Shown in pieces: positions 10,996 to 64,000 of a stretch of DNA of 64,000 nucleotides. The DNA comes from Tetraselmis striata (lineage: Eukaryota; Chlorophyta; Chlorodendrophyceae; Chlorodendrales; Chlorodendraceae), in NCBI GenBank assembly GCA_006384855.1, contig VCJN01000577.1, positions 62,001 to 126,000 of the forward strand. The letters are read 5' to 3'. Below the pieces are notes generated by a model. The model did not search any database. It was not told the origin of the DNA and saw only the letters and a list, made by a program, of their open reading frames with translations. The number at the start of each line of letters is the position of its first letter. The stretch's first letter is position 1. Position numbers and translations under genes: made by a program.

Positions 10996-11583
10996 CTAAA
11001 GGGCACCGGGGGCGGGGCAAGAGGGAGCAGGGCCAAAGATTGTGGAAGAGCGGGGACCCGCTTGCATGCCATCGTATTATATCTTGCACAATATCTGTTG
11101 CTGCACTCATATCTCACATCACTAGCTTAGCTATAGTGATTCCCCCCCCCCCCCCCCCCCCCCCCGCACCGCGTACGCACAAGCCTGGGTATACGCATCA
11201 ACTGCCCGCCGGGATGAGAAACTGGTATTGGTAGTGTGTCTGTGGGGTGGAGGGGGGGGGGGGGGCAAAAGAGCTGCCAATTGCTGCCAAGCTGGTGCGT
11301 TACATTGGGGCAGGCGCTGGGCAGACAATTGGGGCTCGCTTCAGAGCATTGTCTAGTGCCTATGCGGCTGCGCCGCCTCCGCCGCATGCAGACTCTGCGG
11401 GCTCACCAGCACCGCCACCTCAGTCATGCGGCCCTGCATCCCGCACCCCGCCGCCGTCAGCCAGATCAGAGGTATCCAGAAGCCAGTGCTGGGGTTGTTG
11501 CGGCATGACCGCATAGTTTTCAGCGGCTGCCGTCCACAGCTTGTAATGCATCCCTTTCCGCCGATTCCGCTGTATGCGCTGTC

Positions 11584-12362
11584 TTGGCGCCGCGCTGCCC
11601 CGGCCGCCGCGCCTTGGCGCCGCGCTGCCCCGGCCAAGGCGCCTTGGCGCCGCGCTGCCCCGGCCGCCGCGCCTTGGCGCCGCGCTGCCCCGGCCAAGGC
11701 GCGCTGCCCTGGCCGCCGCGCCTTGGCGCCGCGCTGCCCCGGCCGCCGCGCCTTGGCGCCGCGCTGCCCCGGCCGCCGCGCGTTGGCGCCGCGCTGCCCC
11801 GGCCGCCGCGCCTTGGCGCCGCGCTGCCCCGGCCAAGGCGCCTTGGCGCCGCGCTGCCCCGGCCGCCGCGCCTTGGCGCCGCGCTGCCCCGGCCGCCGCG
11901 CCTTGGCGCCGCGCTGCCCCGGCCGCCGCGCCTTGGCGCCGCGCTGCCCCGGCCGCCGCGCGTTGGCGCCGCGCTGCCCCGGCCGCCGCGCCTTGGCGCC
12001 GCGCTGCCCCGGCCGCCGCGCGTTGGCGCCGCGCTGCCCCGGCCGCCGCGCCTTGGCGCCGCGCTGCCCCGGCCGCCGCGCCTTGGCGCCGCGCTGCCCC
12101 GGCCGCCGCGCCTTGGCGCCGCGCTGCCCCGGCCGCCGCGCCTTGGCGCCGCGCTGCCCCGGCCGCCGCGCCTTGGCGCCGCGCTGCCCCGGCCGCCGCG
12201 CCTTGGCGCCGCGCTGCCCCGGCCGCCGCGCCTTGGCGCCGCGCTGCCCCGGCCGCCGCGCCTTGGCGCCGCGCTGCCCCGGCCGCCGCGCCTTGGCGCC
12301 GCGCTGCCCCGGCCGCCGCGCCTTGGCGCCGCGCTGCCCCGGCCGCGCGCCTTGGCGCCGCG
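11584..12362. repeat. 30-bp GC minisatellite, about 26 copies
   Basis: A 30-bp unit (CCTTGGCGCCGCGCTGCCCC plus GGCCGCCGCG) repeats across 780 bp with a few variant units (AAGGCG or GCGTTGG). Because the period is divisible by three, very long open frames appear on both strands (Arg/Ala/Pro-rich). No codon-position bias is apparent and I treat them as artefacts. It is the reverse-oriented relative of the array at 2061-2240. Its right end abuts a hAT-like remnant. Confidence 0.97.
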
Positions 12363-12399
12363 CGGGTATTGAGTCCTCCCCTCCCTAGTGAGCGCGTCC

Positions 12400-13262
12400 A
12401 CCTGCGCCTTGCGCTCGGGGCCGTCCTCCTCCGTCACCACATTCTGCAACCCCCACCGCGTGACGAACCACGCAGCTCCTTGCATGCGCTTGTACATGTG
12501 CCCAAGCACCGCCTGGGGACGCGAAGCTCCTTCTCGGTCATGATCGCCTTCACCCGGGCCTCCTCGAGCAGCGGACCGGCGTTAAGAATGGAAAACGTTT
12601 CCATGTGGTGCAAGCAGTCCTCCATGACCCAGCCGGACTGCACCGTCACCTTGCCTGACCCTGCAGTCATGGAGGGGAATGCCGTCACGCCCACGCCCAC
12701 GCCCACGCCCACGCCCACGCCCGGGGGGGGGGGGGGGGGGTTACCTTTCGATTCTTGGACACAGCAAACGAAGGGCGCAACCGTCCATACCGTCTTCGCC
12801 AACGGGGTCCTCCCCCACGCCCATCACATCGTCCACCTTCGAGCCGCCGTCGTCCGAGACCGGCGCCGGCGGGCCGTTTCCGACGGCTGCAGCTACTCCT
12901 GCTGCCGCGCTTGTTGCTGCTGTTGCTGTTGCTGCTGCTGCCGCCCCTGCTGCTGCTGCTTGTGATAAGGCGGCCTTGCGGCGCAACTTAGCCGCACGCT
13001 TCAACGAGTGGCTACAGTTCGGGTATTTCCGGAAGTGCCGCTCTCGCGCCGTCCTTTCACTACTACCCGTCACGATGCCGTGGCAGTGCTTGCATGTGTA
13101 CACGCCATCCTTCGACACACTCGCTATCCATCCCCTTGCCGGCATGCCTGCTGCCGCGCGCGGGGGGCGGGGGGGGGGGGGGGGTTGAGAGTTGGGGTGG
13201 ATGTAACCCACCACCGGCAGGCAACACAGATGCGAGTGCGCGGCTGTCCGCGCTTGATTCAA
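12400..13262 (-). pseudogene. BED-finger/hAT-like transposase remnant
   Basis: Reading on the minus strand, the 13262-12741 frame has W45, C57, C60, H76 and C83 in a segment with DGVYTCKHCHGIVTGSSER, which fits a BED-type zinc finger, the DNA-binding end domain of hAT transposases. A basic KRAAKLRRKA stretch and an Ala-rich linker encoded by CTG/GCT repeats follow. After a C run and a CGCCCA microsatellite (12688-12740), a second frame (12802-12434) carries a helical segment LLEEARVKAIMTEKELRVP. It then continues only in a different frame with LGHMYKRMQ, which resembles the hAT region around DxxPxLGxVY. The frame break near 12515 and the microsatellites mark it as dead. The downstream end runs into the 30-bp minisatellite. 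Confidence 0.5.
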
Positions 13263-39606: not shown

Positions 39607-40894
39607 TCAGAATAGCGTGCCACGTCGTGCGGTGGAGCCCAATTTGTGCGCTCGTGCGAGCATGGGCTGCCCAAGGGCTGCGCGGATCTGTGGTGTTCGA
39701 GCTGCGCCAGTGACATTTTCCACCACATAGTTGAGACCGTGCGGCTGTTTGCGCTGGATCTCATAAGTGAGTCTGGTTACCGGATGGGATGCCTGTGCTC
39801 GGTCGTCTCGCAGGCCTAGACCGAGCCCCGCAGCAGAGAACAGTTGACACGGTGGGGAGCTGACCACCAGGTCGACAGGTGGCAGAGATTGGAAGTCCTC
39901 AGCCGAGAGTTGGTTGACATCTTGTGATGGGAAGCGATCGTCAAACGCATTGTCCACGGCCGCACGGGGCAAGCTGTGAGACCATTTGTTTTGTAGAGTA
40001 TGTAGGTCTGACTGAGCTGCGGCTGCGATTGCACGGTCGTTCTCCACCAGCGTCACCATACCGAAACGATGCCCTAATGAGCACAGCTCACCAAGGATGG
40101 CGAAAGTTGCTCCGCTGCAGAGGCCATCGTAGTGAATAGGCTGTGACTTGCTGAAGGCTGTGCTATCGGGCTTCAGGTGTTAAATCTCCGCGAGAGGGCC
40201 AATGCTGTCCTGAATGTCTCGCTCTCGGTGTTGGCATGCAGCCCATGCTGACAATTGGTCTGCAGCGTCAGTGCGGGTGCACCAATGCTGCGCGCGGCGG
40301 CGAGCTCGGCGGCGTTGACGCTGTGTGCGGCGTCGCCATTGTTGCTTGGTATTGCGGTCAATCAGCCCCTTGTCATGGTGACGGGCTTCATCGTGATGTA
40401 CTGCTGCGAGCGATGTCAGCGCACCCCTCATGTAAGCACCTCCAGGAGAGTCATCATCGTAGTCCGTATCACTGCTGTCATCGGTGGAGTCGGGAGCGAG
40501 AGACGGCATGTCTCCCTTGGTGTGCTCGGTGTGGGCAGAGCGCTTATGCTCATCCTAATCAGAGTCATCTGATGTGTCAGAGTTGGACTCGAGGTCAGGC
40601 ATGTCCCCATCATGGTCTGTCTGGTTAGTGTAGGTATTGCTGACATGTATCGGGTTGCCTAGGCCTGGAGTGCTGCGCAACCGTCTGGGGTGCGTTGACA
40701 GTGGATTCCGTGTCGGGCGCGGGATGTTTATGGCGGATGCTGAGCGCATTGGATCGCCTCTCGGCTGTCTCGCGAGCAAGTGAGAGCCATAGAAGTCGAA
40801 GACATGAGGTGTGCTATGAAACGCTTCCACAGCCGCAACTGTAGCCGAGCTCTCCATCTGCTCTGTAGTGTTAAACTGGAGAGCCAGATGGGTC
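39607..40894 (-). pseudogene. ORF2: acidic/basic region plus C5-cytosine DNA methyltransferase, decayed
   Basis: One minus-strand frame runs from 40894 to 39607 with stops TAG (40555-40557) and TAA (40180-40182) inside and a TGA at its end (39607-39609). The first part has no known domain but holds an acidic Asp/Ser stretch and an Arg cluster. The last ~190 codons show C5-methyltransferase motifs: DGLCSGATFAILGEL (motif I), LVENDRA (II), VDLVVSSPPCQLFSAAG (IV, with the catalytic Cys at 39849-39847) and LNYVVENVTGA (VI, ENV), then LGSTARRGTLF like motif VIII. The domain is shortened after that and reaches the 3' LTR. Such enzymes methylate cytosine in DNA. The frame is offset from Gag. This copy should be inactive as it stands. 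Confidence 0.7.
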
Positions 40895-40898
40895 TTGT

Positions 40899-42965
40899 CT
40901 AGCTAAGCAGGCGTCCTGGGGGGGGGGGGGGGGGGGGGGGGCGTCTGCCCCGCATGCGGCAGGAAGCCTGACACATCCGGCGCTTGGTGCGACGGCCACT
41001 CGGCGGGAGCGCCGGTCGCTGCGGCGGTGCGGCTGGTACATGCTTGAGGTAACACTCATACACGTACTGATGTAGCCATTTGAGCTCGTTGTTCCGGCGT
41101 TGCGAGGGGCTGAGGATTGCCGGCTCCGAGACCAACTCCTCGATTTCCATGACATGTGCTGCGGCCACCTCCTCCATCGCGGCTTGTGTGGCCCGTTCTT
41201 CCACCGCGAGGGCATGTGCTCGCGCGAGTGTCTCACGCTGACGCACAAGGAGAGGCTCTTCGTCAGGGCCACCAAGTGGACGCCCTCCTGCCAATGCTTG
41301 GCACGGGTGGACTGTGGTCGCCGTCAGCGGAGTGGTGACCGCGCTTGTCACGCTGATGTTGTGACGAGTCTTGGTGGGTACCCACTGCCACATGAATGCA
41401 TCCCCTCCAAGCGCGCTGAGACTGCGCGCATCGGGCATGTGCGTCGGACCTTTGCCTTTGGCACGCGCTGACAAGTGACGTGGCACAGGAGGGCTCAAGC
41501 CCGCACATATTGGCTCGGGTGTGGGTGAGCGGGCTGGTGGAGAAATCATGAGCGGTCTGCTCTCGTCGACAAAGGTGAGAGTGACAAACCGGCCCCGAGG
41601 CACGGACACTGGTGGGCTGCGCATCGTGACACCGCTGCTGTCAACCGACCAGGCTTGGGGTGGCATTGGGGGCAGTGGAGTCTCAGCAAGAGGGACAGGC
41701 CTCGCATCATCTGCAAGGAAGCTGAATGACAGTGCACCAAAGTCCTGAGTAGATGAGGTAGCTGCTGGAGCAGCGATCGCTGCAACATGGGCCTTGGCAC
41801 GACATTCTGATTCACTGTGCCCCTGAGGCCCGCAGGTCCAACACTTGCCAGTGAACGGACGAGAGGTGCGGGGGCCACTAGGACCTGTGTGGCGGCCCCG
41901 GAATCTGCTGATTTCCTGTGACTGAGCTAGGAGCTGAGTTTGCATCTGCTCCAGCTTCGCCATCAGGGCGGCAATGTCATCTAATGGAACGGTCGGCGGT
42001 GATGGAAGGGCTGCCAAGGGGGGCGCGGATGTCTGAGCATACACTGCGGTGAAGGCTCCAGTCGGGTCCGTGCTGGGACTTGGGAGTGATTGGAAGAGCG
42101 CTGCTTTGTAGCGAGCAAAAGAGGTGAGTGAGGTGTTTATGCGCATTGCAACGCGGTACATCTCCATATCGGGATTCATGCCATGTTTGAAGAGGGTCAA
42201 TATTTCACGATTTATGATGTGACCACTTGCATCCAAGAGCGCACTGCGGCACTGCTCCACGCGGCGAGCGTAATCACGCACCGACTCGATTGAGCGCTGC
42301 TTCTCATCCATGTCACGACGCCGCCCGAGGGCTTCACCTTCATGACTCGGGATGAACTCGAGGCGCAGAGCTTCCAAACAGTGGTAATAAGCTTCCCGAC
42401 CAGTGGGCCTAGCATCCTCACGGGCTGTCAGAATCGCATTAACTGCGATGGGGTGCTTATCAAGCAGTGACAAGAGCAGCTGGGAGACCTGCTGGTGGTG
42501 ATACGTGCTGCAGGTATCATCAGCATCGGTGGGCTCAAAGATGGTGCGATAGCCAGGCAGATGCTTGATGGATTGCTTGAGATGCACGAGGAACGTGCGG
42601 CACGCTGAGATATCCTGACAGTCCGACACTTGGAGGTATGTGAAGTGCTTGGGCCTGAGTTCAGCGTCACGGCGCAGATAGCGGTCATTTGCTGCAGCTT
42701 GGGCAGCAGCCACGGCACGAGCTGCAGTAGTTGCCGCATGAGCCTCTGCAACATCAAGAGCGGTGGCAACATTATTAGGCGGGGTTTGTCGCATGGCTGC
42801 GTCGGCAGCGGTAGCAAGAGCCTGGTGATGTTGCGCGGCAGCCTGGGCCTCCGCAGCAGTGACAGCAGCGGCTGTGTCAGCAGACACATAGTGTTCTGCT
42901 CGAGGCGCAGCACCACCAGTGATGATGCCACTGGTCGCAGGTGCTGGCGGGTCAGCGTCCGCCAT
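40899..42965 (-). CDS. gag: Gag-like protein with CCHC zinc knuckle
   Basis: The 688-residue frame starts 432 nt inside the 5' LTR. Residues 1-130 are Ala-rich and helical. Residues about 130-330 form the retrotransposon Gag-type capsid region (HFTYLQVSDCQDISACRTFL; LEALRLEFIP; a charged MDEKQRSIESVRDYARRVEQ). Near residue 391 the knuckle CWTCGPQGHSESEC fits C-x2-C-x4-H-x4-C, the nucleic-acid-binding motif of Gag. The C-terminal third is Pro/Ser-rich, ends in a coiled-coil-like stretch and a Pro run coded by a C tract (40919-40941), where slippage could change the frame. The intact frame suggests selection or recent activity on gag while the downstream frame has decayed. Confidence 0.8.
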   Translation of the reverse strand: MADADPPAPATSGIITGGAAPRAEHYVSADTAAAVTAAEAQAAAQHHQALATAADAAMRQTPPNNVATALDVAEAHAATTAARAVAAAQAAANDRYLRRDAELRPKHFTYLQVSDCQDISACRTFLVHLKQSIKHLPGYRTIFEPTDADDTCSTYHHQQVSQLLLSLLDKHPIAVNAILTAREDARPTGREAYYHCLEALRLEFIPSHEGEALGRRRDMDEKQRSIESVRDYARRVEQCRSALLDASGHIINREILTLFKHGMNPDMEMYRVAMRINTSLTSFARYKAALFQSLPSPSTDPTGAFTAVYAQTSAPPLAALPSPPTVPLDDIAALMAKLEQMQTQLLAQSQEISRFRGRHTGPSGPRTSRPFTGKCWTCGPQGHSESECRAKAHVAAIAAPAATSSTQDFGALSFSFLADDARPVPLAETPLPPMPPQAWSVDSSGVTMRSPPVSVPRGRFVTLTFVDESRPLMISPPARSPTPEPICAGLSPPVPRHLSARAKGKGPTHMPDARSLSALGGDAFMWQWVPTKTRHNISVTSAVTTPLTATTVHPCQALAGGRPLGGPDEEPLLVRQRETLARAHALAVEERATQAAMEEVAAAHVMEIEELVSEPAILSPSQRRNNELKWLHQYVYECYLKHVPAAPPQRPALPPSGRRTKRRMCQASCRMRGRRPPPPPPPPGRLLS

Positions 42966-43397
42966 GATTACGGTGGCGAAGGTTAACGAGTTACGCAGAC
43001 TAAGGGATTCTTGCTAATATATGCCCGCAAGGTGAGGTCTGGTGCCACTGCGCCCGCCTCTCTGTAAGACTTGGGCACCTTGATCCGACACAACCAGCTA
43101 GAAACACCCTAGTGCCGAAGCACTGATGTCAGGGAGGGCTCGAAAATCGCACACCCAAAGGGGTTCAGACAGCTGCACAGAAACCTTCCTAGGAGTGTGA
43201 CCGACACACACCTCAGCACACCGGTGCTGGAAACGAGAGCGCCACCAGCGCTCGGAAAACCGAGAGGGGCAACCGAAAAGGCAGCCCACAAGGGACCAGG
43301 TGGGGGTAGCCAAGGCAGCACCCACGCGAACAGAGCGACGCGCCCACAGAGGAATGTCAGGAAGGCAACTCCGGCGTGGAGGAAGCCAAAAACGTCT

Positions 43398-46530: not shown

Positions 46531-46732
46531 CTTGCGCGGCTTCCATAGTCAGCTTGGGGGGGGGGGGGGGGGGGGGAGTGGCTGGGCGTAGGTTTGAGAG
46601 TTGAGCCTTGAGAATGGAGAGTGGAGTGTTGTGATCGTGCGCCGTTTGGTGATGTTGTATTCCGTATTCCCGCCTCGTTGCCGCCCCACCAAGGAATACA
46701 GCAAGTGCATGATGACGCATTACAAAAACTAA

Positions 46733-47236
46733 AAACACCGTTTAACACTGCGCAATATACTATTGGCGCACCACCACGTACTATATGCCGCATATGTGGG
46801 CCCGGTACGGATGCAGCAACGTGCGACACCTGGGGCGATTATAGTACAATTTCTCTGCGGATTCGGACATGCCGGGCGCAGCAAGCCACAAGCGGGAATG
46901 TTGAAGGCGACGACACGCCAGCGGGGTGCACCCACGGGAAGGCGGTCGCCAGTACGGCCGGGAATGAAGAGGTCGTGACGCGGCTTCCAGGAGCGCGTGT
47001 CGGAGCACATCTCCGAGAGGAGCGGGTACCAAGCTTTGTCAGGCCAATAGGGAACAATGACGATGGCTGGGGCATTGTTGGACTCCAGTTGGGAGACAAG
47101 ATCGCCGATGAGGTTCCATGGAGGGTTACACCAGTTACGTTCGCAACGCCATGCAGCGTCGGAGAGGCGCAGGCGGTGGACGGCCTCGCACCGCGGGTCA
47201 CGCCAGGCAACTTCAAGGCAACTTTGGGATTCGAGC
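46733..47236 (-). pseudogene. Retroelement fragment with NPPWNLI/VPYWPDKAWYPLL motifs
   Basis: The minus frame (47352-46729) reads NWCNPPWNLIGDLVSQLES and IVIVPYWPDKAWYPLLSEM, then HDLFIPG. These motifs occur in the segment after RNase H in DIRS-like and some Ty3-like polyproteins. No RT or RNase H catalytic residues are inside the window. It abuts the plus-strand integrase fragment at about 47230, so two elements are joined head to head. Confidence 0.5.
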
Positions 47237-47926
47237 CGACTACACATGCTACTACTCAACTCGCAACCGAGCCAACTCGAGCTCTTCCGGAACACGTCAA
47301 GTATGTACAGGAGCTTCATCGCTTCGCGCATGATTGCGTATTGGAGGCTCAAACTCTTATGCAGACTGCAGCTAATCGTAAACGACTACCCATACCATTC
47401 AAGACCGGCGACAGAGTTAAGCTGAAAGCGTCTCATCTGAGGTTTATTCAGCAACCCTGTGCTAAGCTACGCGATCGCTACGTGGGCCCCTTCGTCATTA
47501 CAGCGCAGATCTCACCAGTTGCTTTCCGATGGCAACTACATGCGGGCGTACGAGTCCACGACGTGGTGCACGCGAGTATGCTGGAAAAGTGGTATGACGA
47601 CCCTGACCAAGCAAAAGACGAAGCCTGAACGAGCACCGATTGTCCATGACGCAAACCGATTCCATGTTCAAGACATACTCGATGTTGTTTTCAACAACAA
47701 TGGCACTGGACTACTGTTTCGAGTACGATGGGCGTTCCCGTACAACGTACCAAGCGAAGACACCTGGGAGCCCCTACGCGGAGTCAAACACTTGGACATT
47801 TTCCGGTCGTTCTTACTGCTGTCTAAACCATGCCGACACTTTACTGCGAGCCCAGACTTCATTCGGTTCCGTAATCGCTACCCAAGCCGAGTACCTTCCG
47901 CCTGGACTTCAAGACCAAGACTGTAG
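47225..47926 (+). pseudogene. Ty3/gypsy chromovirus integrase C-terminus and chromodomain
   Basis: The plus frame ending at 47628 has LPIPFKTGDRVKLKASHL, CAKLRDRYVGPFVI and HDVVHASMLEKWYDD, the GPF/Y module at the C-terminus of chromovirus integrase. A one-base frameshift near 47620 moves to the frame ending at 47926, which reads FHVQDILDVVFNNNGTGLLFR, RVRWAF, SEDTWEPL and DIFRSFLLLS, a chromodomain (used to target insertion to chromatin). Integrase core, RT and protease are absent. It is a 5'-truncated dead copy. Confidence 0.75.
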
Positions 47927-51300: not shown

Positions 51301-51360
51301 TGAATAGCCCTGATGCGAGTACTACTCGTATGTATGCGTAGTACAGGTACGGGTAGGGAC

Positions 51361-52704
51361 TAGTGCCTCGTCCAGATATGTTGTATATATACAAAAAATG
51401 TTGTATATATACAACAGAAAGTATGGGTCCAGTACTATGGGCAGAACTGGCATGATGACCGCTAGGGCGTCAGGAGAGGTCCAGAGGGCCCCAAATAGGA
51501 TACTTACGTTGGTCCGGGACCGATCGGGTCGGCTGATCGGTCAGTGCAAAGCGGCCACCGTTCCCAACCCACCGATTCACCATGAGACAACCTATTCCGC
51601 TTAAAAGCCGTGTAGCCGCCCGTCGTGGGCCGTATCAAGCCCCTGCCTCCGGAAGATTACGCCAACACAGGGCTATGAGGTTTGGAGAAGTTGCGGAGTC
51701 TGTCGTGAACAACACATCCCGCATCAGGTGGGACGACGCCACCTAGTCTCCCGAGGCCTCAAACGTGCTTAAGCTGCAAACCACCGGCGCCGGAACCCTG
51801 CCTCAGGTATGAATCAAATACCACCCAACACTCGTCTAATGCCTTGCCTGGATGACATGTCGTGGGCATGTGATGATTGTGTCGACACGTGTGGGCGGCG
51901 CGGCCCTGCGGTCGCGTCTGGCTGTTGAATCAAAATTCTTTTTTTATTGAAATATCACAACAATGGCTGACTGACTTGCGCCCTGCAGGTCAGTCAGCCC
52001 TGCCTACCAGCCCCGTTCCGGATTCGAGGCAAGCTACGCCATGCCCAGGACCTCACGTGACTCTAGGACATCTCCGACAGTGCCATGGTCGCAGCGCCAG
52101 CGGTCCCTGGTGTCCTTGGGCCGAACCACGCTGGTCCGACCGCCATGCCTCCGTCGCGTTTCGCCGCCGCTACTGTTCCATCCGACTGCGACAACTTGGC
52201 AATCGCCCCGGCAGCAACAATGCCAATGAGTCCGTTCGCTGCACTATGTGCCGTGTTGAAGACGACAACGTTGGCTGGATCTACTGCAAGTGCCCGGAGT
52301 GTGACATACCTCTGTGCACCGCGAGCAAGAGGCGCAAGGGCGCCGCGTGATGGAGCCGCCACCGCCACATTACCGCCCAGGAGGTCGCGGCGTACGGGGT
52401 CCACCGCCGCACGCACTAGGCCGTAGCCGGACAACCCTCCCGTTCCCAAACCCGAAACTTCAAGACCTTCCTACCCTGGTCGGTTGTCGGCTGATGGTTG
52501 CTCCTCCGCAGTGCCCTGGCCGGAACAGGTGGTGTAATGCTGGTTCAGCGAGCTACAGCATCTTAGAGGGCGACGCTTCTGTTAGGAGCGCGCCCCGCGG
52601 AGTATTAGTAGTATTTAATCAAAATCCGTCAATAATGCCGACGCGACCCGTGTTGTATGATCGTGTTGTGTATATACCATACAACATATCCGGACGAGGC
52701 ACTA
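51361..52704 (+). mobile_element. TIR transposon with piggyBac-like zinc-domain remnant
   Basis: Ends are inverted repeats TAGTGCCTCGTCC(A/G)GATATGTTG over about 28 bp. GGGAC flanks both sides (51356-51360, 52705-52709), a likely 5-bp target duplication. A related repeat at 50105-50150 reads GGGTAGGGACAGGTTGAATG and gives the empty site. Inside, the plus frame ending at 52350 has RCTMC, YCKCPECDIPLC, the Cys pattern of piggyBac C-termini. PiggyBac elements usually duplicate TTAA, so either the ends or the protein belong to different elements. Confidence 0.65.
52190..52350 (+). pseudogene. piggyBac-like C-terminal zinc domain
   Basis: The last ~50 codons of the 51877-52350 frame read ESVRCTMCRVEDDNVGWIYC then KCPECDIPLC, followed by a basic KRRKG end. 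The C-x2-C, C-x-C-x2-C, LC spacing matches the modules at 10.3-10.8 kb. No transposase core is visible. Confidence 0.45.
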
Positions 52705-52971
52705 GGGACTAGGGATTCTGCAGCTATAGTATGCACATTAAATAATAAGTACTCGGGACGCACATGGAAGTTTCCGCACCAATATAAATTGGTAGCCGCC
52801 CGTCGCGGCCCGGAGCTAAGTTCTGCTTAATGAAATAAGCTTTTTCCTTCCTGAGCACGACTCCTACCGCTACTGTCAGCGGTAGCGACTAGTGCATTCC
52901 CTACTCTAGGCCCCCGGCCAGAATAATCCGAAGGGGCGAAGGCCCCGCTCAAAACTCGTACGTTCAGAGGG

Positions 52972-54081: not shown

Positions 54082-57000
54082 ATGGGCTGCTCTGCATCGA
54101 AAAGCCTCAACAAGGTGAGACACCGCGCATGCTTGGGTACCGTATCTTTTTCCAGTGCCCGAAGTCCGGCATGCCTGCAGGTTCTTGCGCGCCGCCGCCA
54201 GCACCCGCCCAGCGGGAAGGGGACGTGTGCGTACCTACAAACCTTTACTCCTTTTGTAGAGGATGCTGAACTGTGGCTAGTCGTCCCCCGTCTGCACCTC
54301 GAAAGTGCGCTACTTGGACGAAACCCCAAAATGCGAAACAGCCCGAACATGCCGTAGTATTACCGACTTGCAGAAAAGGGCACACCGTGATAGCAGCCTC
54401 CGTCACCCGGGTTGGACAGGCGACTTAAGTGCAGAAGGTGTGGCCGGTAGCTCCAATTCATGTGCACCGCAACCATCTGTCGCCAAGTATGCGGAAGGAA
54501 ACGATTCGCTGTGTTTCCACTACACCTTACAAGTATGTCAAGTGCTCAACTGCGGCTTGCCGACTCTCGCATGCCGTGTCTCGGAAGTGTGATAATATTT
54601 GGACGAAACCCTAAAATCCGAAAACAATCCGCACTTGCCTTACACTGAGGCTGAATTGCAGAACTTGGCATAGCAGCTCCGTGTTCCCGCCGTAGACAGA
54701 TGATTTAGTAAGGGACGGCCTTGAGATAGAGCCAGGTGCCCATTTTGGGCCGGCTGTTGCCCTTTAAAAGGTACCCCCATGCCTGAGAGCTGGTCGGGCT
54801 TACCTGTACTATACTATAGGGACGGCAAAGTGGGGACGGTGGGTCAGCCGCGCCACTTATTTGTCCTCGCCAACAAATAAGGTCACAAGCGCCGCCCGGT
54901 ATGAGTATGCAGACATTGCTCAGCCCTGGTGCCTGTCGCACACTGGTCTGGGTGTTCAGCAGGTGGTGCAGCCGGACAATGCGCCCAACAAGCCAAGCAA
55001 GAGCAGTGCTGGCGACCAGCAAACCACTCTCCCACAGCAGGTAGAACCTTCAGGGGCAGAGCCTGCGCTGACGCCCTCACCGAGTAACACTGTGCACCGC
55101 CTGCTTGTTTCAACATACAATATCTGCACTTGATGGGTCACGCCCGAATACCTCTGTTGGTCCGTCACGCCTGCACTCACTGTGCTGGTGTCACTTTCCT
55201 GCGGAAGGCGGTTGCCGACAGTGGAGGTGCTGCAGATAACGTGGTTGCCCACAACGCCCCTGCCACTGATGAGGGGGGCACCGTTGAGCAGGTGCCCTCA
55301 GCCCCCTCGCACCTTGCTGCCGGCTCCCCTGGTGTAGCACCTCCCTGTGCCCGGCGTAGAAAGACTATTTGCTGCACTCACTGTGCTGGTGTCACTTGTC
55401 TGCAGAAGGCGGTGGCCGACAGTGGAGGTGCTGCAGATGACGTGATTGCCCATGACGCCCCTGCCACTGATGAGAAAGGCACAGTTGAGCAGGTGCCCCC
55501 AGCCCCCTCGCACCTTGCTTTCTGAACCATGTGTGCCGCCGGTGTTGTCACTACTCGTACCCTGCCAGAACATAGCCCGTCAACATCGCTGACCAGCTCA
55601 AGTATATTAAGCAACACGTATCTATCTGTATCGGGGTTGCGGCGTGAGGGGAGCGTATGGGGACTTTTTTAAGTTTGACATAATTTGCTTAACTGCGAAG
55701 TTATGTATTTGGGCACGGGCGCTACCTCAAGCGCTCATTATGCAGCTTTTATGCAACTTATAGCTGGTGCTAGGGGAATATACATATATACGGAGCATTA
55801 TTGAGGTTTGGCCATGTTAAGGACGGAACTGCCCCTCTAAAAGAGGTTCAGCATGATGCCCCTCGGGCAATAGGGCTTGGAAAGGTTATCTGCAGGGCTA
55901 TCTGCTGCGTGTCGTACGGCCTGATTTGACCACCGGACGGTTATGTTCCAGCCGGTCACAAGTGGGTGGGTCGTGCATCGCCAAAAATATCGGTTCGCAG
56001 GGTTTGGTCACACTTGTATACCGCCACCACAGCAGCACATGGGCGCTCCCGCCCTGTCCCACTCGCCTCGCTGGGCAACCGTGAGCGTCACCCCCGTCAA
56101 CCCAAACTGTTATTTATAGCCCGTAAGCCTTGTTCACGCTCGGCACGTCTAGGCTGTGGCGCGGAGAGCGGGTCCGGGGACGAGCGTCGCTAGGCATCGG
56201 CGGTCGGCGGGCAGTTGGTGATGTCCAGCAGTGGAGCACGACGTGCGACCGCCGCCGCGCCACGACGTCTGGTCGCCTATAGTTTCGCTGCCTTGCAGAA
56301 CGCCTCCCTCGCCGCGGCCAGAAGTGCTGAGATCGCTGCCCTGTCCGCGTGTGGCGAGGTATATTCCACTTGGTAGCAGTCGCCTTTAGGTTACTCCAGG
56401 TGCGGGTTTTTCGAACAGGCAGCCTCATCGAGTTCTGTGAGCGAACACTCCATGTGCTCCTCACTCCACTGATTGTACGAACCACGACCATCGTCGGCCG
56501 GCTTTCGACGGCCTTGACCGAAGCTTGCCTTAGCTGCTGCTTTGGCTTTGGCTCGGGCCCGGCTTTTAGTGCGAGCATGCTTCTTGGCTTCTTGCGGCCG
56601 ACGGCGACCAGCACCAGAAGCGGCACAAAAATAGCAGAAAACTCACGCTGTAAAACGGCACGCTCATCGGCCCGCCACGCACCGAATGGGGCGGTACGCG
56701 ACGAGCAATAGCTCTGCAGACACCTCAAAAGTGGTCTGCGATGGGCGGAGGGGTCGGTGGCGAGCATAGAGGTCGGCCAGGTGGTGCGAGTGCTTAACGA
56801 TTTGTCGATTTTTAACTCGGATCAGCTGACATCGGGCCGGGCTGCAGACCGCAGCCGGCCGGTCAGCGGCCCGATTCCAGATTTGAAACCATCCCCGGAA
56901 AGCTGAGGAGCTGAGGAATCCGAGGGTACCATAGGTAAGGGGCGAATTCGTTGTCCTTACATAGCTATTCAGTGAAAACTAAATTTTATGGCCTATTCTT

Positions 57001-60000
57001 GGTGTGGCCATTTAGGTGACAATATTGCATATGCTCCTTGCATGAATACAAAAAAATTTATGTAATTAATATATGAATACCATGCGAGGAGTCGGTGAGT
57101 CTGTCTGTCGCCGACTTTCGGAACTTTTTCGCATAGATTACAATATAGATCGACAATGTATCCGTTGTCATAATAACCGTCGCGCAGGCCAAAATAATAT
57201 GATTACATGAGCTATAGCTGCAAGAGGCGATCATGGGATCACCCGCCCAAAAGGACATTAATAGGAAAAGTCCGCAGGCCAAAATAATCGTCGCGCTTTA
57301 TACTGCTGACTTCCTGTACTTGCACCCGCCGCGTGCACCGGACCCGCACGCCTGACGCTGTTTTTCGTTCGCCACCGGACGCCGGACGACCGTCGCCCGT
57401 CCGCCTCGCCGTCCGTCCGTCGACGGTAGCCGGGCCCTGGGTCGGCGGGTCGGCGGACGCGGGGCTGTACAGTCAGGGGTACCTCTGGTACAGCGTAGCG
57501 ACTTCCCGAACCAAGAATGATTCTTGCGGCTTTCGTCTGGATTCCACACTCCTGAAACAGGTCTACAGTGACGCGGCGCACCCTCCCGGTGTTTAAAATC
57601 GGCGATATAGCGCGCGTACGGCATCTCATGTATCCGTGCAAGGACCACCCCCATCCCACCCCCGAGTGGCCCACTAGAAGTGCACACGACTTGAACGAGA
57701 GCCTCTAAACCACCGCCCATGGGCCCTTATGGGCATGGGATGTGCTTATGGAATGGGATATGGGCCGAGTCGTTTGGAATTTGGTGAGGTACTGGTGAAG
57801 AATCGTGCGATTCATGCCGTGTCTCATCTCGTCCCGATTACCGTATTTTCGCTATTATTCAAGGCGATCACAGCTACCCGTCGCGCCATCGGCTTCCGGT
57901 GCACCTATAAGCAGACAAATCGTCCCATATTGTCTCTATCATTAGCATATGGGTATAGTGGCCTTCGGCTGGGGTAGATAGATGGGTGGTGCGTCTATCA
58001 CTCATCTACGGGTGGTGGTTGGCCGGCCGCCCATTCAGCCTGTTTATCTAAATCTCGGCTCAAAAATATGGGGGGGAGATGGGGCACCGCGCACCGACCA
58101 ACTCATGGGCCACTCATGGGGTCTACCGCACCCCTAGAAGCTAGACCATGGGGCGGTACACGTGCGGCGGGCTAAATAGTTAGCTGCAGATGGCAAGCGA
58201 TGCCTATGCGGGAGAGGGTCGAGAGCGCGAAAAATCCGGGTAGGTCGGGGCCATCGGGCCGGCATCGACTGAGATTGACCGCAAACTGACCGCCAGCGGA
58301 CGTCAACTCTGCGTATGGGCCTCTACTAGTGCTCATGCGATAGGTAAGCACAGCTACCTCAGCCGCCCCCACGGAGGGGTTGAGACCGGGGGTGTATTTC
58401 TGAAAACGCGGGTTCCAAGATCGGACGGCATCTTGAATCGGGGGGACAAGGAGCACCGTCTCTATAGCCTCCGACCTCTAGCTCATTTTTTCCATAGCAT
58501 CCTGACGAGATGGGCCATGGACCTATTTTATTTTCAGGGCAGGTGGTGCCCGTTCGGCTCAGTCATGAGGCCGTGAACATCGCCCCCCTCCGTGAGCCGA
58601 ACGGGCACTGCCCGTCCGCGGTTGCGGCCGACAGGAGGCCGATTTTGAGCACTGCTACGCAGCACACGAGCGGAATATATCGCGGGAAATAAGCGAGTAA
58701 CACGATTGACTATTCTAGAGTACTAAACAACTTACGCGACATCGTATGTATATTACGCTGTATATCCGACTAGGCACCCGCTGGGTGCGCCGTGGCGTAC
58801 TTGTATTAATAACAAGGTTAATAGTCAATCTGTGTCTGTCTGTCTGTCTTTCGCCGACTTTCTTGGCGGTTTCGCATTGATTATTTGATACATTTATCCG
58901 GTATAGATTCCGTTATAATTCCGCGCAGTCAAATAACCATCGCGCTTTCTACCTGCTGACTACCTTCTTTATTTCTACTCTCTACTTTCCTTGTACTTTT
59001 TTCTTCCCGGTAGTCGCTACTTTCCGTGCATTCTCTGGACGCACTCTGTATAAACCATCATCATTACATTAACTTGTGGGCCAAAAAACTACGGGTACTA
59101 CCTCTACGGGTACCGCCCACCCGGCCGCCGCCGGTCGGGCGGGCGGTAGTCGTCGCCGTTCGTCAGGTCTACGGGGCGGGTATGGCACGAAGCGCCGAGC
59201 CCGCCGCGTGCACCGGACCCGGACGCAGGACGCCGTTGTTCGTTCGTCGCTGGACGCCGGACGACCGTCGCCCGTCCGCGTCGCCGCCCGTCCGTCGACG
59301 GACGCCGGGCCCTGTGTCGGCGGGTCGGCGGACTCGGGGCTGTACAATGTAGCGACGACTACCACAACTGATCCTTGCGGCTCTCTGCATTCCACACTCC
59401 TGCAACGGGTCTACTTGCATACATATATTTGTTTGTATATGTATATATATGAATGAACAATGTATATAAATAATTAGAAAATAAATGGAGTAGTTAATAT
59501 ATTCCATTGCATATGTATATGTGTGTGTGTGTGCGTGTGTGTGTGTGTGCGTGTGTGTTTGCGTGTACGTGTGTGTGTGTGTGTGTGTGCCCGCGTATGT
59601 GTGTATGTGTGTGTGCACGTGTGTGTGTGTGTGGGGGGGGTGTCTATGTACCTACTGCACGCCCCTAGTACAAGCTAGCTGACCAAAACCATTACCTGAC
59701 AGCGGCCATTGTTGACGATTGCCGCCCAGTATATCGTGTGGATTTGTATATGTGCACACATCCCTGGTGCACTACCATAGGCGAATGCACATTGAGGCAA
59801 TCTTTAAGGACACTGGTTCACCAATGTTTAGGCATCTGACACACCAATCGCTAATGCACACCAGGTTTGTCACTGCGCACAGACTCCCCTGGCTTAATAC
59901 TAACGCACCGCACACCCATAGCAGCTCCACAGCCGTATGCACCCCCCTTGCACCCAGCTCGACTCAAATGAGGCTACACCCGAAACTTCCCACTACACCC

Positions 60001-63000
60001 TGACATTCCCACTACACCCTAGTGAGGAGAGTGCTCAATTGTGGCTTGCCGATGCCAGCATACATTCTCTCAAAAGTGTCATAGTTGGACGAAACTTGGA
60101 CAAAAGCCCAAATCCGGAAACGGCATGCTTGCTGGTGGCCTGTTGGCCAGGGCCACACCAGTTTTCTGCAGATGAAGGATGAGGCAAAAAAGCTCAAGAT
60201 CAAGAATTATCACAAAAAACGTTACAATGATTACTTACAATGATCAGTACTCGGTCGTTGGATCCGTGAAGGGACCCAACTGCGCCAGCAGACCTGGGGC
60301 TGCTCCCGGGGCTGTCTAGACACGCGTTGCGTTTGTGAGAAACTCGGGGGGCAGCCCGGGCTGTACCTCACAACAGCCAGTATTTTCAGCATCTTCCCTC
60401 CCTTGCCATATCCTGGGGCTGAATTGCAGAACTGGGCATAGCAGCTCCGCGTGCACTGTGCAGGGAAAAACTATTTAGTTAGGAACGGCCTACAGCCTGG
60501 CGCCCATTTGGGGCCTGGTGATGCTCTTTAGTAGCTACCCCCATGCCTTAGAGATGGGTAAGCCTCTGACATTCCCACTACACCTGTACCATACCATAGA
60601 GACCGCAAAGTGGGGACGTTGGGCCAGGGGCTCGCGCCTGTTGTGCTCGCTGCCAAGTAAGGTCACAAGGGCTATGAATATGCAGACATTGCTCAGCCTT
60701 TGTGCCTGTTGCACACTTGTCTGGGTGTTTACCAGGTCTTGCAGCCGGAGAATGCGCCCAACAAGCCAAGCAAGAGCGGTGCTGGCGACCAGCAAACCGC
60801 TCAGCCACAGCAGGTAGGGCCCTCAGGGGCAGAGCCTGCGCAGACGCCCTCACCGAGTAACACCGTGCACCGCCTGCTTGTGTTGACAAACGTCATCCAT
60901 CTATATTTGAGTCACGCCTGAATGCCTCTGTTGGCCCTTCATACCTGCACTCACTGTGCTGGTGGCCCTTTGGTTTGCGGAAGGCGAATGCCGACAGTGG
61001 AGGTGCTGCAGATGACGTGGTTGCCCACGGCGCCCCTGCCAGTGATGAGGGGGGCACGGTTGAGCAGGTGCCGGCCCCCTCGCACCTTGTCAGCTCCACG
61101 GCCACCACTAGCGCTATCCCGATGTGAACTGCGCATTTGGGGTTTTCACCGCCCATGTGTGCTGCCGGTGTTGTCACTGCTCGTACACTGCCAGCACGTA
61201 CCCCGTCACCATTGCTGACCAGCTTTTAGTATACTCAGCAGCCGTCCGATACAAATATGCAGACATTGCTCAGCCTTTCTGCCTGTCGCACACTGGTCTG
61301 GGTGTTCAGCAGGTGGTGCAGCCGGACAATGTGCCCAGCAAGCCAAGCAACAGCAGTGCTGGCGACCAGCAAACCACTCGCCCGCAGCAGGTAGGGGCCT
61401 CAGAGCCAGAGCCTGCGCTGACGCCCTCCCCGAGTAACACCGTGCACCGCCTGCTTGTTTCAACACCCACTATCTGCACTTGATGGGTCACGCCTGAATG
61501 CCTCTGTTGCCCCTTCATACCTGCACTCACTGTGCTGGTGGCCCTTGTTTGCGGAAGGTGGTTGCCGACAGTGGAGGTGCTGCAGATAATGTGGTTGTCC
61601 ACGATACCCCTTCCAGTGATGAGGGGGGCACATCAGCTGAGCAGGTGCCAGCCCCCTCGCACCTTGCTGTCAGAACCACTGCCACCACCAGCGCTGTCCC
61701 GATGTGAAGTGCGCATTTGGGGTTCTCATCAGCCATATGTGCTGCCAGTGTTGTCATTGCTTGTACCCGTCACCATTGCTGACCAGCTTTAGTATACCCT
61801 GGACTACCTATCTTCCTGTATCGGAGTGGAGCGTATGGGGGGATGGGCATTAGTAGGGCATTTCTTGCTGCACCCCAAAGTAGAGAGTACTTGGGCACGG
61901 GCGCTACCTCAGGCGGAAGTATACAACATTAGGCGGCTATGTGCGATGTACCTAGTGTGTGTCCCTATTTCAAGCTGGCCCACCAAAGCCATGAATGCCA
62001 TTCGTGAGTGTTGCCACCATTTTATGTCATGTGTAATCGCACATGTGCACAGATCCCTGCTGCACCACCATACGCACTTGCACATTGAGGCAATCTTTGA
62101 CAGTGCTCATTCGTGTGCCTGTCGCACATGGCCTGGCTGTTTAGCAGGTGGTGCAGCCGAACAATGCGCCCAACAAGCTCAGCAACAGCAGTGCTGGCGA
62201 CCAGCAAACCACTCGCCCGCAGCAGGTAGAGCCGTCAGGGGCAGAGCCTGCGCAGCCGCCCTCACCCATTACCAGCATGCACCGCTTTCTCGTGTTGTCA
62301 CACGTCATCCATCTATATTTGAGTCACGCCTGAATGCCTCTGTTGGCCCGTGATACCTGCACTCACGGTGCTGGTGTCACTTGTTTGGGGAAGGCGACTG
62401 CCGACACTGGAGGTGCTGCAGATGATGTGGTTGCCCATGACGCCCCTGCCACTGATGAGGGGGGCACATCAGTTGAGCAGGTGCCAGCCCTCGCGCACCT
62501 TTCTGCCCGAAACATGTGTGCTGCCGGTGGTGTCACTGCTTGTACCCTGCCAGCACGTACCCCGTCACCATTGCTGACCAGCTCTAGTATACTCAGCATC
62601 ATCTATCTATCTGGATGTGGGTTGCGGGTGCGAGTGGAACGTACGGGGTGCTGTGCATTAGTAGGTCATAATTTGCTGCACCCCAAAGTAGAGTAACCGG
62701 GCACGGGCGCTTGATGCAGCATGATGCAGCAATTTATAATGCAACATTAGGCGACTATGTGCGATGTACCTAGTGCGTGCCCCTATTACACGCTGGCCCA
62801 TTAACGCCATGAATGCCATTTGTGAGTGTTGCCGCCTTTTTATGTCATGTGGATTTGTATATGTGCACAGATCCCTGCTGCACCACCACACGCAAATGCA
62901 CATTGAGGCAATCTTTAAGGACACCGATTCACCCATAATTAGGCACCTGATACACCAATCACTAATGCACACCATATTTCTTACAGGCTCCCCTGGCTTC

Positions 63001-64000
63001 ATGAGAACGCAGCGCATAATACTCCATAATAATCGCACACCCATATCCGCTCCTCACCCGTACGCACCGCCCTTGCACCCAACTCTGCTCACCTCCTCCC
63101 CGCTGCTCTGAAGCCCCCCCCCCCCCACCAATTCTGTTGTCTATCCTGGCAGATCCCTTCGCACCTGCGGGACACCCTCGCGAAGCGGTACCCCCTGCCA
63201 CCGCACCCCTCCAGCCGGGGCGTCCCGGTCAGATGGCTGCTCGATGTCTTTGTGCCGCTTGTCGAGACGCACCTCGGCGGCAAGCTGGACGACGAGCTGC
63301 ACGACACCACGACCAAGGAGGTGGTGGAGGGCGTGGTGAAGCCTTTCACTGCCAGCAGCAAGAGCACCGTGGTGGAGGGCATCGACTGCTGCCGGCCGCC
63401 CCAGTTCTTCATGTCGCACACCTGGCACCGCCCCTTCCGCGAGCTGGTGCAGTGCCTGAGGAAGCACTTTGAGAACGCGCTGGACACCGTCGTGTGGCTG
63501 GACATCTTTGCCTTCAACCAGCACCTGAGTTTCGAGGACATGAAGGCGGACCTGGGCACGCTGGCGGAGACGGTGAGGCGCACGGAGCGCACGCTGGTGG
63601 TGATGGACCCCAAGGGCGTCTGCTTCACGCGTGCTTGGTGCCTCAAGGAGCACCACGAGGCGGTCAAGGCCGGCGGCGGCGGCCAGGACGACCCCGGCAA
63701 GCTGGAGATTCTGCCGTACTGCCTGGACACCAGCGAGGTGGAGGAGCTGGCGGAGATGATGTACAACCTGCAGGTGGAAAAGTCGACGGCGTTCAAGCCA
63801 GAGGACAAGGACATGATCCTGGCGGAGATTCGGGCGCACGAGGGCGGTGCGGCGCGCTTCGACACGGTGCTCAAGGGCGCGCTGCGGCGCGCCGTGGCGG
63901 CGATGGTGGGCCTCCTGGAGACCGGCACGAAGGAGCACACGAGCCTCATGGATATTGCGGGCCAGCTTCTGGTGATGGGCGGGGATTATGCCGCAGCGCA
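54082..64000 (+). CDS. Putative acylated TIR-like/TPR protein with repeated phase-0 exons (partial)
   Basis: Proposed exon 1 is 54082-54114 ([11 protein letters not shown] then AAG|GTGAGA); Gly2 and Cys3 fit N-myristoylation and palmitoylation, which would tie the protein to a membrane. Type A exons, each 78 nt, lie at 54963-55040, 60736-60813, 61313-61390 and 62148-62225 and start V(V/L)QP.NAPNK after CAG and end PQQ before GTAG. Type B exons, 84 or 87 nt, lie at 55208-55291, 55409-55492, 60984-61067, 61558-61644 and 62394-62480, with GGAAD.V..H..P..DE and EQ before GTGCC. All are phase 0 at both ends, so every join stays in frame with the next proposed exon at 63153. A and B peptides look disordered, probably a linker. 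55.5-60.7 kb is filled with repeats. Linkage is inferred; the gene continues past the right edge. Confidence 0.5.
56277..56582 (-). pseudogene. Unrecognised transposon-like protein fragment in the exon-array intron
   Basis: The minus frame starts with an Arg/Ala-rich [20 protein letters not shown], then [19 protein letters not shown] and, after an in-frame [32 protein letters not shown] recalls the start of helix-turn-helix domains of pogo-like transposases, but the match is too short for a call. It lies between exons B2 and A2. Confidence 0.3.
57085..57590. repeat. Interspersed repeat, copy 1 (pairs with 58825-59420)
   Basis: Both copies start near GTCTGTCTGTC.GCCGACTTTC, contain CCGGACGACCGTCGCCCGTC and end near TTCCACACTCCTG. 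They are separated by 1.7 kb and diverged, so they are two insertions of one family. Copy 1 also holds an inverted 70-bp repeat at 57203-57260. Confidence 0.75.
58825..59420. repeat. Interspersed repeat, copy 2
   Basis: Counterpart of 57085-57590, with a 5' part rich in GTCTGTCT and an additional C/T-rich tract at 58960-59010. The Arg/Pro-rich frames on both strands come from the CGACGG-like words and are not supported as genes. Confidence 0.75.
59517..59640. repeat. (TG)n microsatellite
   Basis: A 120-bp near-continuous TG tract with CG and CC interruptions, ending in a G run. It lies in the intron between proposed exons B2 and A2. Confidence 0.97.
63153..64000 (+). CDS. TIR-like exon with start of TPR-like repeat (runs off window)
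   Basis: After the acceptor CTATCCTGGCAG the plus frame is open for 848 nt to the edge. It has [15 protein letters not shown], then [12 protein letters not shown] and [17 protein letters not shown], the succession of a TIR-like fold seen in chlorophyte proteins that carry kinesin-light-chain-type TPRs. The end reads [13 protein letters not shown], which looks like a first TPR helix. The family is thought to bind nucleotide or act in signalling; function in algae is unknown. This is the most secure part of the right-hand gene. The long minus-strand frames opposite are its shadows. Confidence 0.7.
   Translation, partial: MPSHLRDTLAKRYPLPPHPSSRGVPVRWLLDVFVPLVETHLGGKLDDELHDTTTKEVVEGVVKPFTASSKSTVVEGIDCCRPPQFFMSHTWHRPFRELVQCLRKHFENALDTVVWLDIFAFNQHLSFEDMKADLGTLAETVRRTERTLVVMDPKGVCFTRAWCLKEHHEAVKAGGGGQDDPGKLEILPYCLDTSEVEELAEMMYNLQVEKSTAFKPEDKDMILAEIRAHEGGAARFDTVLKGALRRAVAAMVGLLETGTKEHTSLMDIAGQLLVMGGDYAAA

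Follow-up and report, generated by a model that had tools for sequence, protein, structure and literature searches.

Layout of the gene and the encoded protein

The stretch of DNA analysed here (the window) covers 64,000 nucleotides (nt) of the genome of the green alga Tetraselmis striata (NCBI GenBank assembly GCA_006384855.1, contig VCJN01000577.1, positions 62,001 to 126,000 of the forward strand). At its right-hand end lies a gene of a TIR-TPR family, in which an array of nine small exons of two types, named A and B, is situated between a short first exon and a long terminal exon. This array, which would encode an acidic linker between an N-terminal tip and a TIR-like domain, is the subject of the present analysis. 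The parts of the gene are as follows.

54082..54114, + strand: exon 1 (E1), 33 nt, donor GTGAGA; putative myristoylation/palmitoylation tip
54963..55040, + strand: linker exon A1, 78 nt, phase 0-0, AG/GT borders, no stop; an A-type exon is also present in the relative C1641
55208..55291, + strand: linker exon B1, 84 nt, phase 0-0, AAG-only acceptor
55409..55492, + strand: linker exon B2, 84 nt, phase 0-0, CAGAAG tandem acceptor
55493..60735, + strand: intron of 5243 nt, containing repeats and a simple repeat rich in GT; divides the array into a proximal A-B-B part and a distal part
60736..60813, + strand: linker exon A2, 78 nt, phase 0-0
60984..61067, + strand: linker exon B3, 84 nt, phase 0-0, AAG-only acceptor
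61313..61390, + strand: linker exon A3, 78 nt, phase 0-0
61558..61644, + strand: linker exon B4, 87 nt (extra codon), phase 0-0, AAG-only acceptor
62148..62225, + strand: linker exon A4, 78 nt, phase 0-0
62394..62480, + strand: linker exon B5, 87 nt (extra codon), phase 0-0, AAG-only acceptor
63153..64000 (part within the window), + strand: terminal exon, TIR-like domain followed by kinesin-light-chain-type TPRs; 866 codons in all

The initial annotation of this DNA had placed nine small A and B exons at these sites, and all of them (9/9) are indeed preceded by AG, followed by GT, a multiple of three in length and free of stop codons; the gain of one codon that it described in B4 and B5 is likewise borne out (87 vs 84 nt). 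All nine are in phase 0 and 78-87 nt long, so that the array is both a series of same-phase exons of near-equal length and a cluster of homologous in-frame exons. The putative introns measure, from 5' to 3', 848, 167, 117, 5243, 170, 245, 167, 503, 168 and 672 nt. The TIR/TPR exon begins at 63153, directly after ...TATCCTGGCAG, and its stop codon ends at C454:127753 (C454 being the window contig), beyond the window end.

Protein search of the alga's own genome with the TIR stretch yields 49 matches, of which six, the window included, are 94-100% identical (the close members), followed by C1641 at 80% and two C2091 matches at 78% identity. The six close members, C1641 and C2091 were compared from E1 to the terminal exon, and for 15 more distant TIR-family loci of the 49 matches the comparison covers the 1.5-kb upstream flank. 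A start exon of MGC or MDC type lies upstream on the same strand in 6/6 close members, at a distance of 1.1 to 19.5 kb, and also in C1641 and in the first C2091 unit, which upholds the assignment of the MGC exon and the TIR/TPR exon to a single gene. Moreover, a translation start just upstream of 63153 was rejected: the first Met in the TIR frame is residue 87, so an upstream start is needed.

Other readings of the B exon borders were considered as well. The gap between B1 and B2 is open and in frame, but adjacent B-B spacings in the family (n=16; 215 nt in 11, 201 nt in 5) are mostly not a multiple of three, and reading of B through its donor was rejected as a general mode. An acceptor inside B (GCTGCAG) would leave 56 nt, break the phase and misfit C1641. 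The sequence following the B exons, for example GTGCC(CTC)AGCCCCCTCGCACCTT at window 55292-55316, is conserved with small variations and resembles the start of the TIR exon (63153-63168, ATCCCTTCGCACCT); as a guess, a B unit may once have adjoined the TIR exon start and so be the source of this likeness.

Exon 1 is an identical 33 nt in 5/6 close members including the window, and in these five the tip reads MGCSASKS, in agreement with an MGC-type pattern, MG(C)xxS(K); C1641 has MGCSASKT and C2091 has MGCSASKG. We take MGCSASKS to be a putative myristoylation/palmitoylation signal. The earlier proposal of an acylated protein fits the MGC tip that recurs in the family and stays putative; C1947, with its MDC start, would lose the glycine. 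In C1947 (L053), which reads MDCSASKS, the glycine that myristoylation requires is replaced even though the TIR stretch is 94% identical. MGC-type starts also lie within 1.5 kb upstream of 5/15 distant loci (L036, L038, L039, L046 and L047), where they were not traced to the same gene. An acyl tip may thus be general in the TIR-TPR family.

With all nine small exons joined, the window linker would be 246 amino acids (aa) long, contain no F, W, Y or C and carry a net charge of -29, a composition from which it is read as a probable flexible acidic spacer. The corresponding lengths in the other close members are 0, 0, 54, 276 and 360 aa, with 84 aa in C1641 and 145 aa in C2091.

The TIR-like domain proposed from the sequence is supported at the level of predicted structure. 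The model, built from an 11-sequence alignment, has a predicted local distance difference test (pLDDT) score of 89.2 (a 3-sequence version reached 47.5 and was not used) and matches the TIR fold over about residues 81-265, where 50/50 of the fold matches listed are TIR-containing entries; it also shows extra N-terminal helices beside the TIR fold. A Pfam scan of the 282-aa TIR stretch returned no TIR model at E<=1, only COG2_C below its cut-off, and an ncbifam scan returned none. The lack of a hit among curated TIR profiles argues that the domain lies outside the close TIR subfamilies and leaves the fold assignment untouched. E166, within WCLKE, hardly varies among the 11 aligned proteins and may correspond to the TIR catalytic glutamate; NADase activity is putative. 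The TPRs all lie within the 866-codon terminal exon, and their kinesin-light-chain type is assigned from relatives.

Array copy number in close and distant relatives

The number of A and B exons varies from 0 to 13 across the six close members, with the following exon orders between E1 and the terminal exon.

C444: A-B; the simplest member having A/B
Window (C454): A-B-B-A-B-A-B-A-B
C2562@18k: A-B-B-A-B x6
C2562@86k: A-B-B-A-B x9
C2562@60k: no A/B exon
C1947: no A/B exon

Homology to the window intron covers both of its ends in C2562@60k and C1947, whose introns lack the A/B portion. The split of the array by a long intron is found in the two array-bearing C2562 copies as well (about 5 and 15 kb). 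Over 351 nt, the proximal A-B stretch of the window shares 98-99% identity with the corresponding stretch in each C2562 array gene, and an upstream repeat element is common to the window and C2562@18k at 98% identity. Taken together, these similarities suggest that the window and C2562 array genes arose by recent duplication or represent alleles, and that their arrays came to differ in length afterwards. The repeat itself, at about 51360-52706 of the window, is a multi-copy element with at least dozens of genomic matches at 84-98%, its 98% copy lying upstream of the C2562@18k gene.

The arrays of C2562@18k and @86k are three B units apart, while ten pairs of units matched by eye show 0 to 4 differing sites, which argues that array length changed recently. 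Exchange may also act on single exons. B1 of the window differs from C18k_B1 at 6/84 sites, five of them amino-acid changing and one (a third position) silent, whereas A1, B2 and the two surrounding introns show 0/446 differences; five of the six differing states occur together in C18k_B5. The excess in B1 has a Fisher p of 0.0024, with B1 chosen post hoc, and the pattern of B1 against its flanks hints at exchange between individual exons.

Among more distant relatives, C1641 has kept the order of the gene: E1 (27 nt), A (72 nt), B' (93 nt), B (87 nt) and the TIR exon, all in phase 0 with CAG acceptors and GT donors. Blastn of three window segments against C1641 gives short weak matches only, the two best of the A-B segment falling inside A and B. 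In shuffle tests (500 shuffles) the likeness of A to A reaches p 0.002, the floor of the test, and that of B to B p 0.022.

At C2091 a deposited gene model is available. The first 156 residues of its protein, eukprot:jgi/Tetstr1/442187/TSEL_030337.t1 (P0004), are exact peptides on six exons, namely E1 (30 nt) and small exons of 78, 90, 78, 105 and 84 nt, all in phase 0 and joined in one model, and its two TIR-TPR halves read like C2091 open frames. The small-exon acceptors of C2091 are CAG, as in C1641. The second C2091 unit has two further small exons of 81 and 72 nt, and no MGC start was found in the 4.4 kb before it. As modelled, TSEL_030337 (C2091; L030, L029, L056) fuses two tandem TIR-TPR units in one 1467-aa protein, a putative double-unit gene. 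At C2092, one frame runs from an MGGCCSKG tip through a linker to the TIR start without a break and agrees with the first part of P0008. C1641 and C2091 thus show that linker exons of a small, symmetric, phase-0 kind are a recurrent feature of the TIR-TPR family.

Coding status and use of the A and B exons

The copy set comprises 9 A and 25 B exons, w_B4 and w_B5 having been tested for stops without the extra codon and then in full. A stop in the exon frame occurs in 0/9 A and 0/25 B copies, and AG and GT are kept in all of them. A crude Poisson simulation (20,000 runs) on six A-B units, whose intron tree has a length of 0.51 substitutions per site, gives a neutral expectation of about 8 losses (2.1 stops, 4.1 splice-dinucleotide losses and 1.9 frameshifts); none was observed, and a loss-free outcome arose in about 1e-4 of the runs. 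Columns are variable at 36/165 positions in exons vs 59/169 in introns (Fisher p 0.011), and the mean pairwise difference is 0.097 in A, 0.096 in B and 0.161 in the A-B intron. For A, the ratio of nonsynonymous to synonymous substitution rates (dN/dS) is 0.43 (6 unique copies), compared with 0.34 (6) in the TIR exon, and of the three frames its own has the best codon score. On this evidence A is very probably a real exon, and B is likely to be one too.

Several observations weigh against this reading, most of them concerning B. Its dN/dS is about 1.0 over 16 unique copies, a value at which positive selection on B is not claimed. The codon score of B is -0.55 in its own frame vs -0.15 in frame 1, and the G+C content at third codon positions (GC3) has a mean of 0.55 in B and a range of 0.69-0.81 in A, vs 0.88-0.93 in the TIR stretch. 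However, GC3 in the annotated C2091 small exons is 0.36-0.54, as low as in B, and low GC3 was for this reason dropped as an argument against coding. Conservation extends about 24-30 nt past the B donor (mean pairwise difference 0.086 in the first 30 nt vs 0.096 in B), and 12/25 family B copies, 4/5 of those in the window among them, have an AAG-only acceptor, the other 13 having CAGAAG. Among the relatives, two of the six close members are without any A/B exon, B' of C1641 is not significantly like B (shuffle p 0.24), and the C2091 model is of unstated evidence and fuses two tandem TIR-TPR units. Exons 5 and 6 of C2091 show weak similarity to A and B (p 0.03 and 0.12), and orthology is not claimed. 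Two protein searches with the close subfamily, one with the 282-aa TIR piece and one with residues 1-345 of the full-length model, found no protein closer than 71%; the six close copies may therefore lack annotation or expression. It should also be noted that duplicated units carry intron DNA along with exons, and that other frames are often open too (frame 1 has a stop in 3/25 B and 3/9 A copies), so openness at such length says little.

With moderate confidence, we propose that the T. striata protein consists of an acylated tip, a flexible acidic linker of phase-0 A/B exons, a TIR fold and a long TPR array, and that the linker evolves by exon copy number with the exons mostly joined in order. 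Exon anatomy, conservation, copy-number differences and the predicted TIR fold are directly supported. The joining of all exons, acylation of the tip, the role of the linker as a tether and a function in signalling are parts that we infer. As every exon is symmetric, unequal exchange within introns could add or remove exons with the frame intact, and tether length and local sequence can evolve by copy number without frame damage; exon number would then set the length of the tether between the membrane tip and the TIR domain. Joining in order is the simplest use of the array, and the only annotated relative (C2091) is modelled in this way. With 12 weak and 13 strong acceptors among the 25 B exons, partial skipping is plausible, and most likely the exons would be joined mainly in order with the weaker B exons sometimes skipped.

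The initial annotation had favoured combinatorial alternative splicing, in which different A/B subsets would be joined to give many linker isoforms from one locus. Phase 0 in all nine exons does mean that any of 512 ordered subsets would stay in frame, but duplication alone would equally leave this neutrality. A plausible basis for differential inclusion lies in the purine-rich AAG-only acceptors beside the CAGAAG ones, and splice variants are reported for brown-algal LRR exon arrays (PMC11378527). On the other hand, the annotated relative at C2091 joins every small exon, and within the two exon-bearing stretches searched, inverted repeats of the docking/selector kind were not apparent (inverted pairs >=14 nt: 0 in 54900-56000 and 3 in 60600-63200, none arranged as a selector series), a test that concerns this one mode of splicing. 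We consider general use of such splicing rather unlikely. A broader variant, in which gene-to-gene copy number, combinatorial inclusion of strong and weak B exons and exon-limited exchange would together make a tunable or hypervariable tether in a unicellular alga, appears doubtful.

It is similarly improbable that the array consists mostly of dead duplicates, with an ancestral E1-A-B-M gene used with one or few A/B pairs and the other copies being duplicated intron segments rarely spliced in. The single A/B pair of C444, the intron DNA duplicated together with each exon, the weak acceptors of 4/5 window B exons and the B dN/dS of about 1 would all fit such a history; yet the 9 A and 25 B copies have lost no reading frame to a stop and no splice dinucleotide, and the six A-B units show no losses where neutrality predicts several. 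That A and B are not exons at all but conserved or converted intronic repeats, E1 always being spliced straight to 63153, is very unlikely: the two members without A/B must splice in this manner if expressed, and the B dN/dS, its GC3 of 0.55 vs 0.88-0.93 in the TIR stretch and the conservation running past B would agree with it, but A- and B-type exons recur in C1641 with order, frame and splice sites, GC3 is equally low in the annotated C2091 small exons, and the dN/dS of A is 0.43.

Other features of the window and comparison with known systems

Outside the gene, the window contains open frames of other kinds. A 704-aa open frame at 40899-43013 (- strand) has a CCHC-like knuckle (CWTCGPQGHSESEC) and, by this motif, is presumably a retroelement gag. 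Open frames at 46612-47926 (+ strand) appear to resemble a Ty3/gypsy-type pol end with a chromodomain-like tail. The open frame at 39607-40179 (- strand) contains SSPPCQ, a motif by which we assume a resemblance to C5 DNA methyltransferase. A long tandem repeat with a PGQRGAKARR unit and several open frames occupies 11353-12965.

Hypervariable exon clusters of animals, such as those of Dscam, are used in a mutually exclusive fashion and code for portions of folded domains. The array described here is like such clusters in that homologous in-frame exons are grouped, and unlike Dscam in that it encodes a linker and shows no sign of exclusivity in the window. With respect to the TIR domains of SARM1, plant TIR-NLRs and bacteria, the present domain is too divergent for Pfam TIR at E<=1, has the extra N-terminal helices in its predicted model and is joined to kinesin-light-chain-type TPRs.

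Teng et al. 2023 reportedly describe, to judge by their title, exon shuffling and alternative splicing in brown-algal NB-ARC-TPR genes, where the TPR units are said to be the arrayed exons. By that title, the likeness lies in exon shuffling in TPR-bearing candidate immune receptors; the difference would be that the TPRs here are within a single exon and the array is in the linker. The statement in the initial annotation that arrays of this kind are known for a few animal genes is incomplete, because brown-algal LRR-ROCO genes (PMC11378527) and, by title, the NB-ARC-TPR genes also have exon arrays. In the LRR-ROCO genes a single LRR corresponds to one 72-bp exon in phase 2, and both splice variants and sites under positive selection are reported; the study builds on Zambounis et al. 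2012 (PMC11378527). The two systems share tandem small exons of one phase and uniform size (there called shuffled), a varying exon number and a candidate signalling/immune family; they differ in that ours is in a green alga, has phase-0 exons and a disordered-looking linker, and has a putative pattern of splicing. The arrayed exons do not form a folded recognition repeat such as LRR or TPR, for A and B encode a linker without F, W, Y or C. Among the titles and abstracts listed from open-licence PMC texts, none describes an exon array in a green-algal TIR gene, and the one paper among the matches listed that brings Tetraselmis and TIR domains together deals with viral NAD-ADPr systems.

Should the exons be in use, a single genome would offer natural linkers of graded length, from 0 to 360 aa, joining an acyl tip to a TIR domain, and the effect of tether length on TIR signalling would be directly testable. 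Symmetric exons and unequal exchange would offer a simple route to a longer linker without frame damage. Use of these exons would, in addition, extend algal exon arrays from brown to green algae and from folded repeats to a disordered linker.

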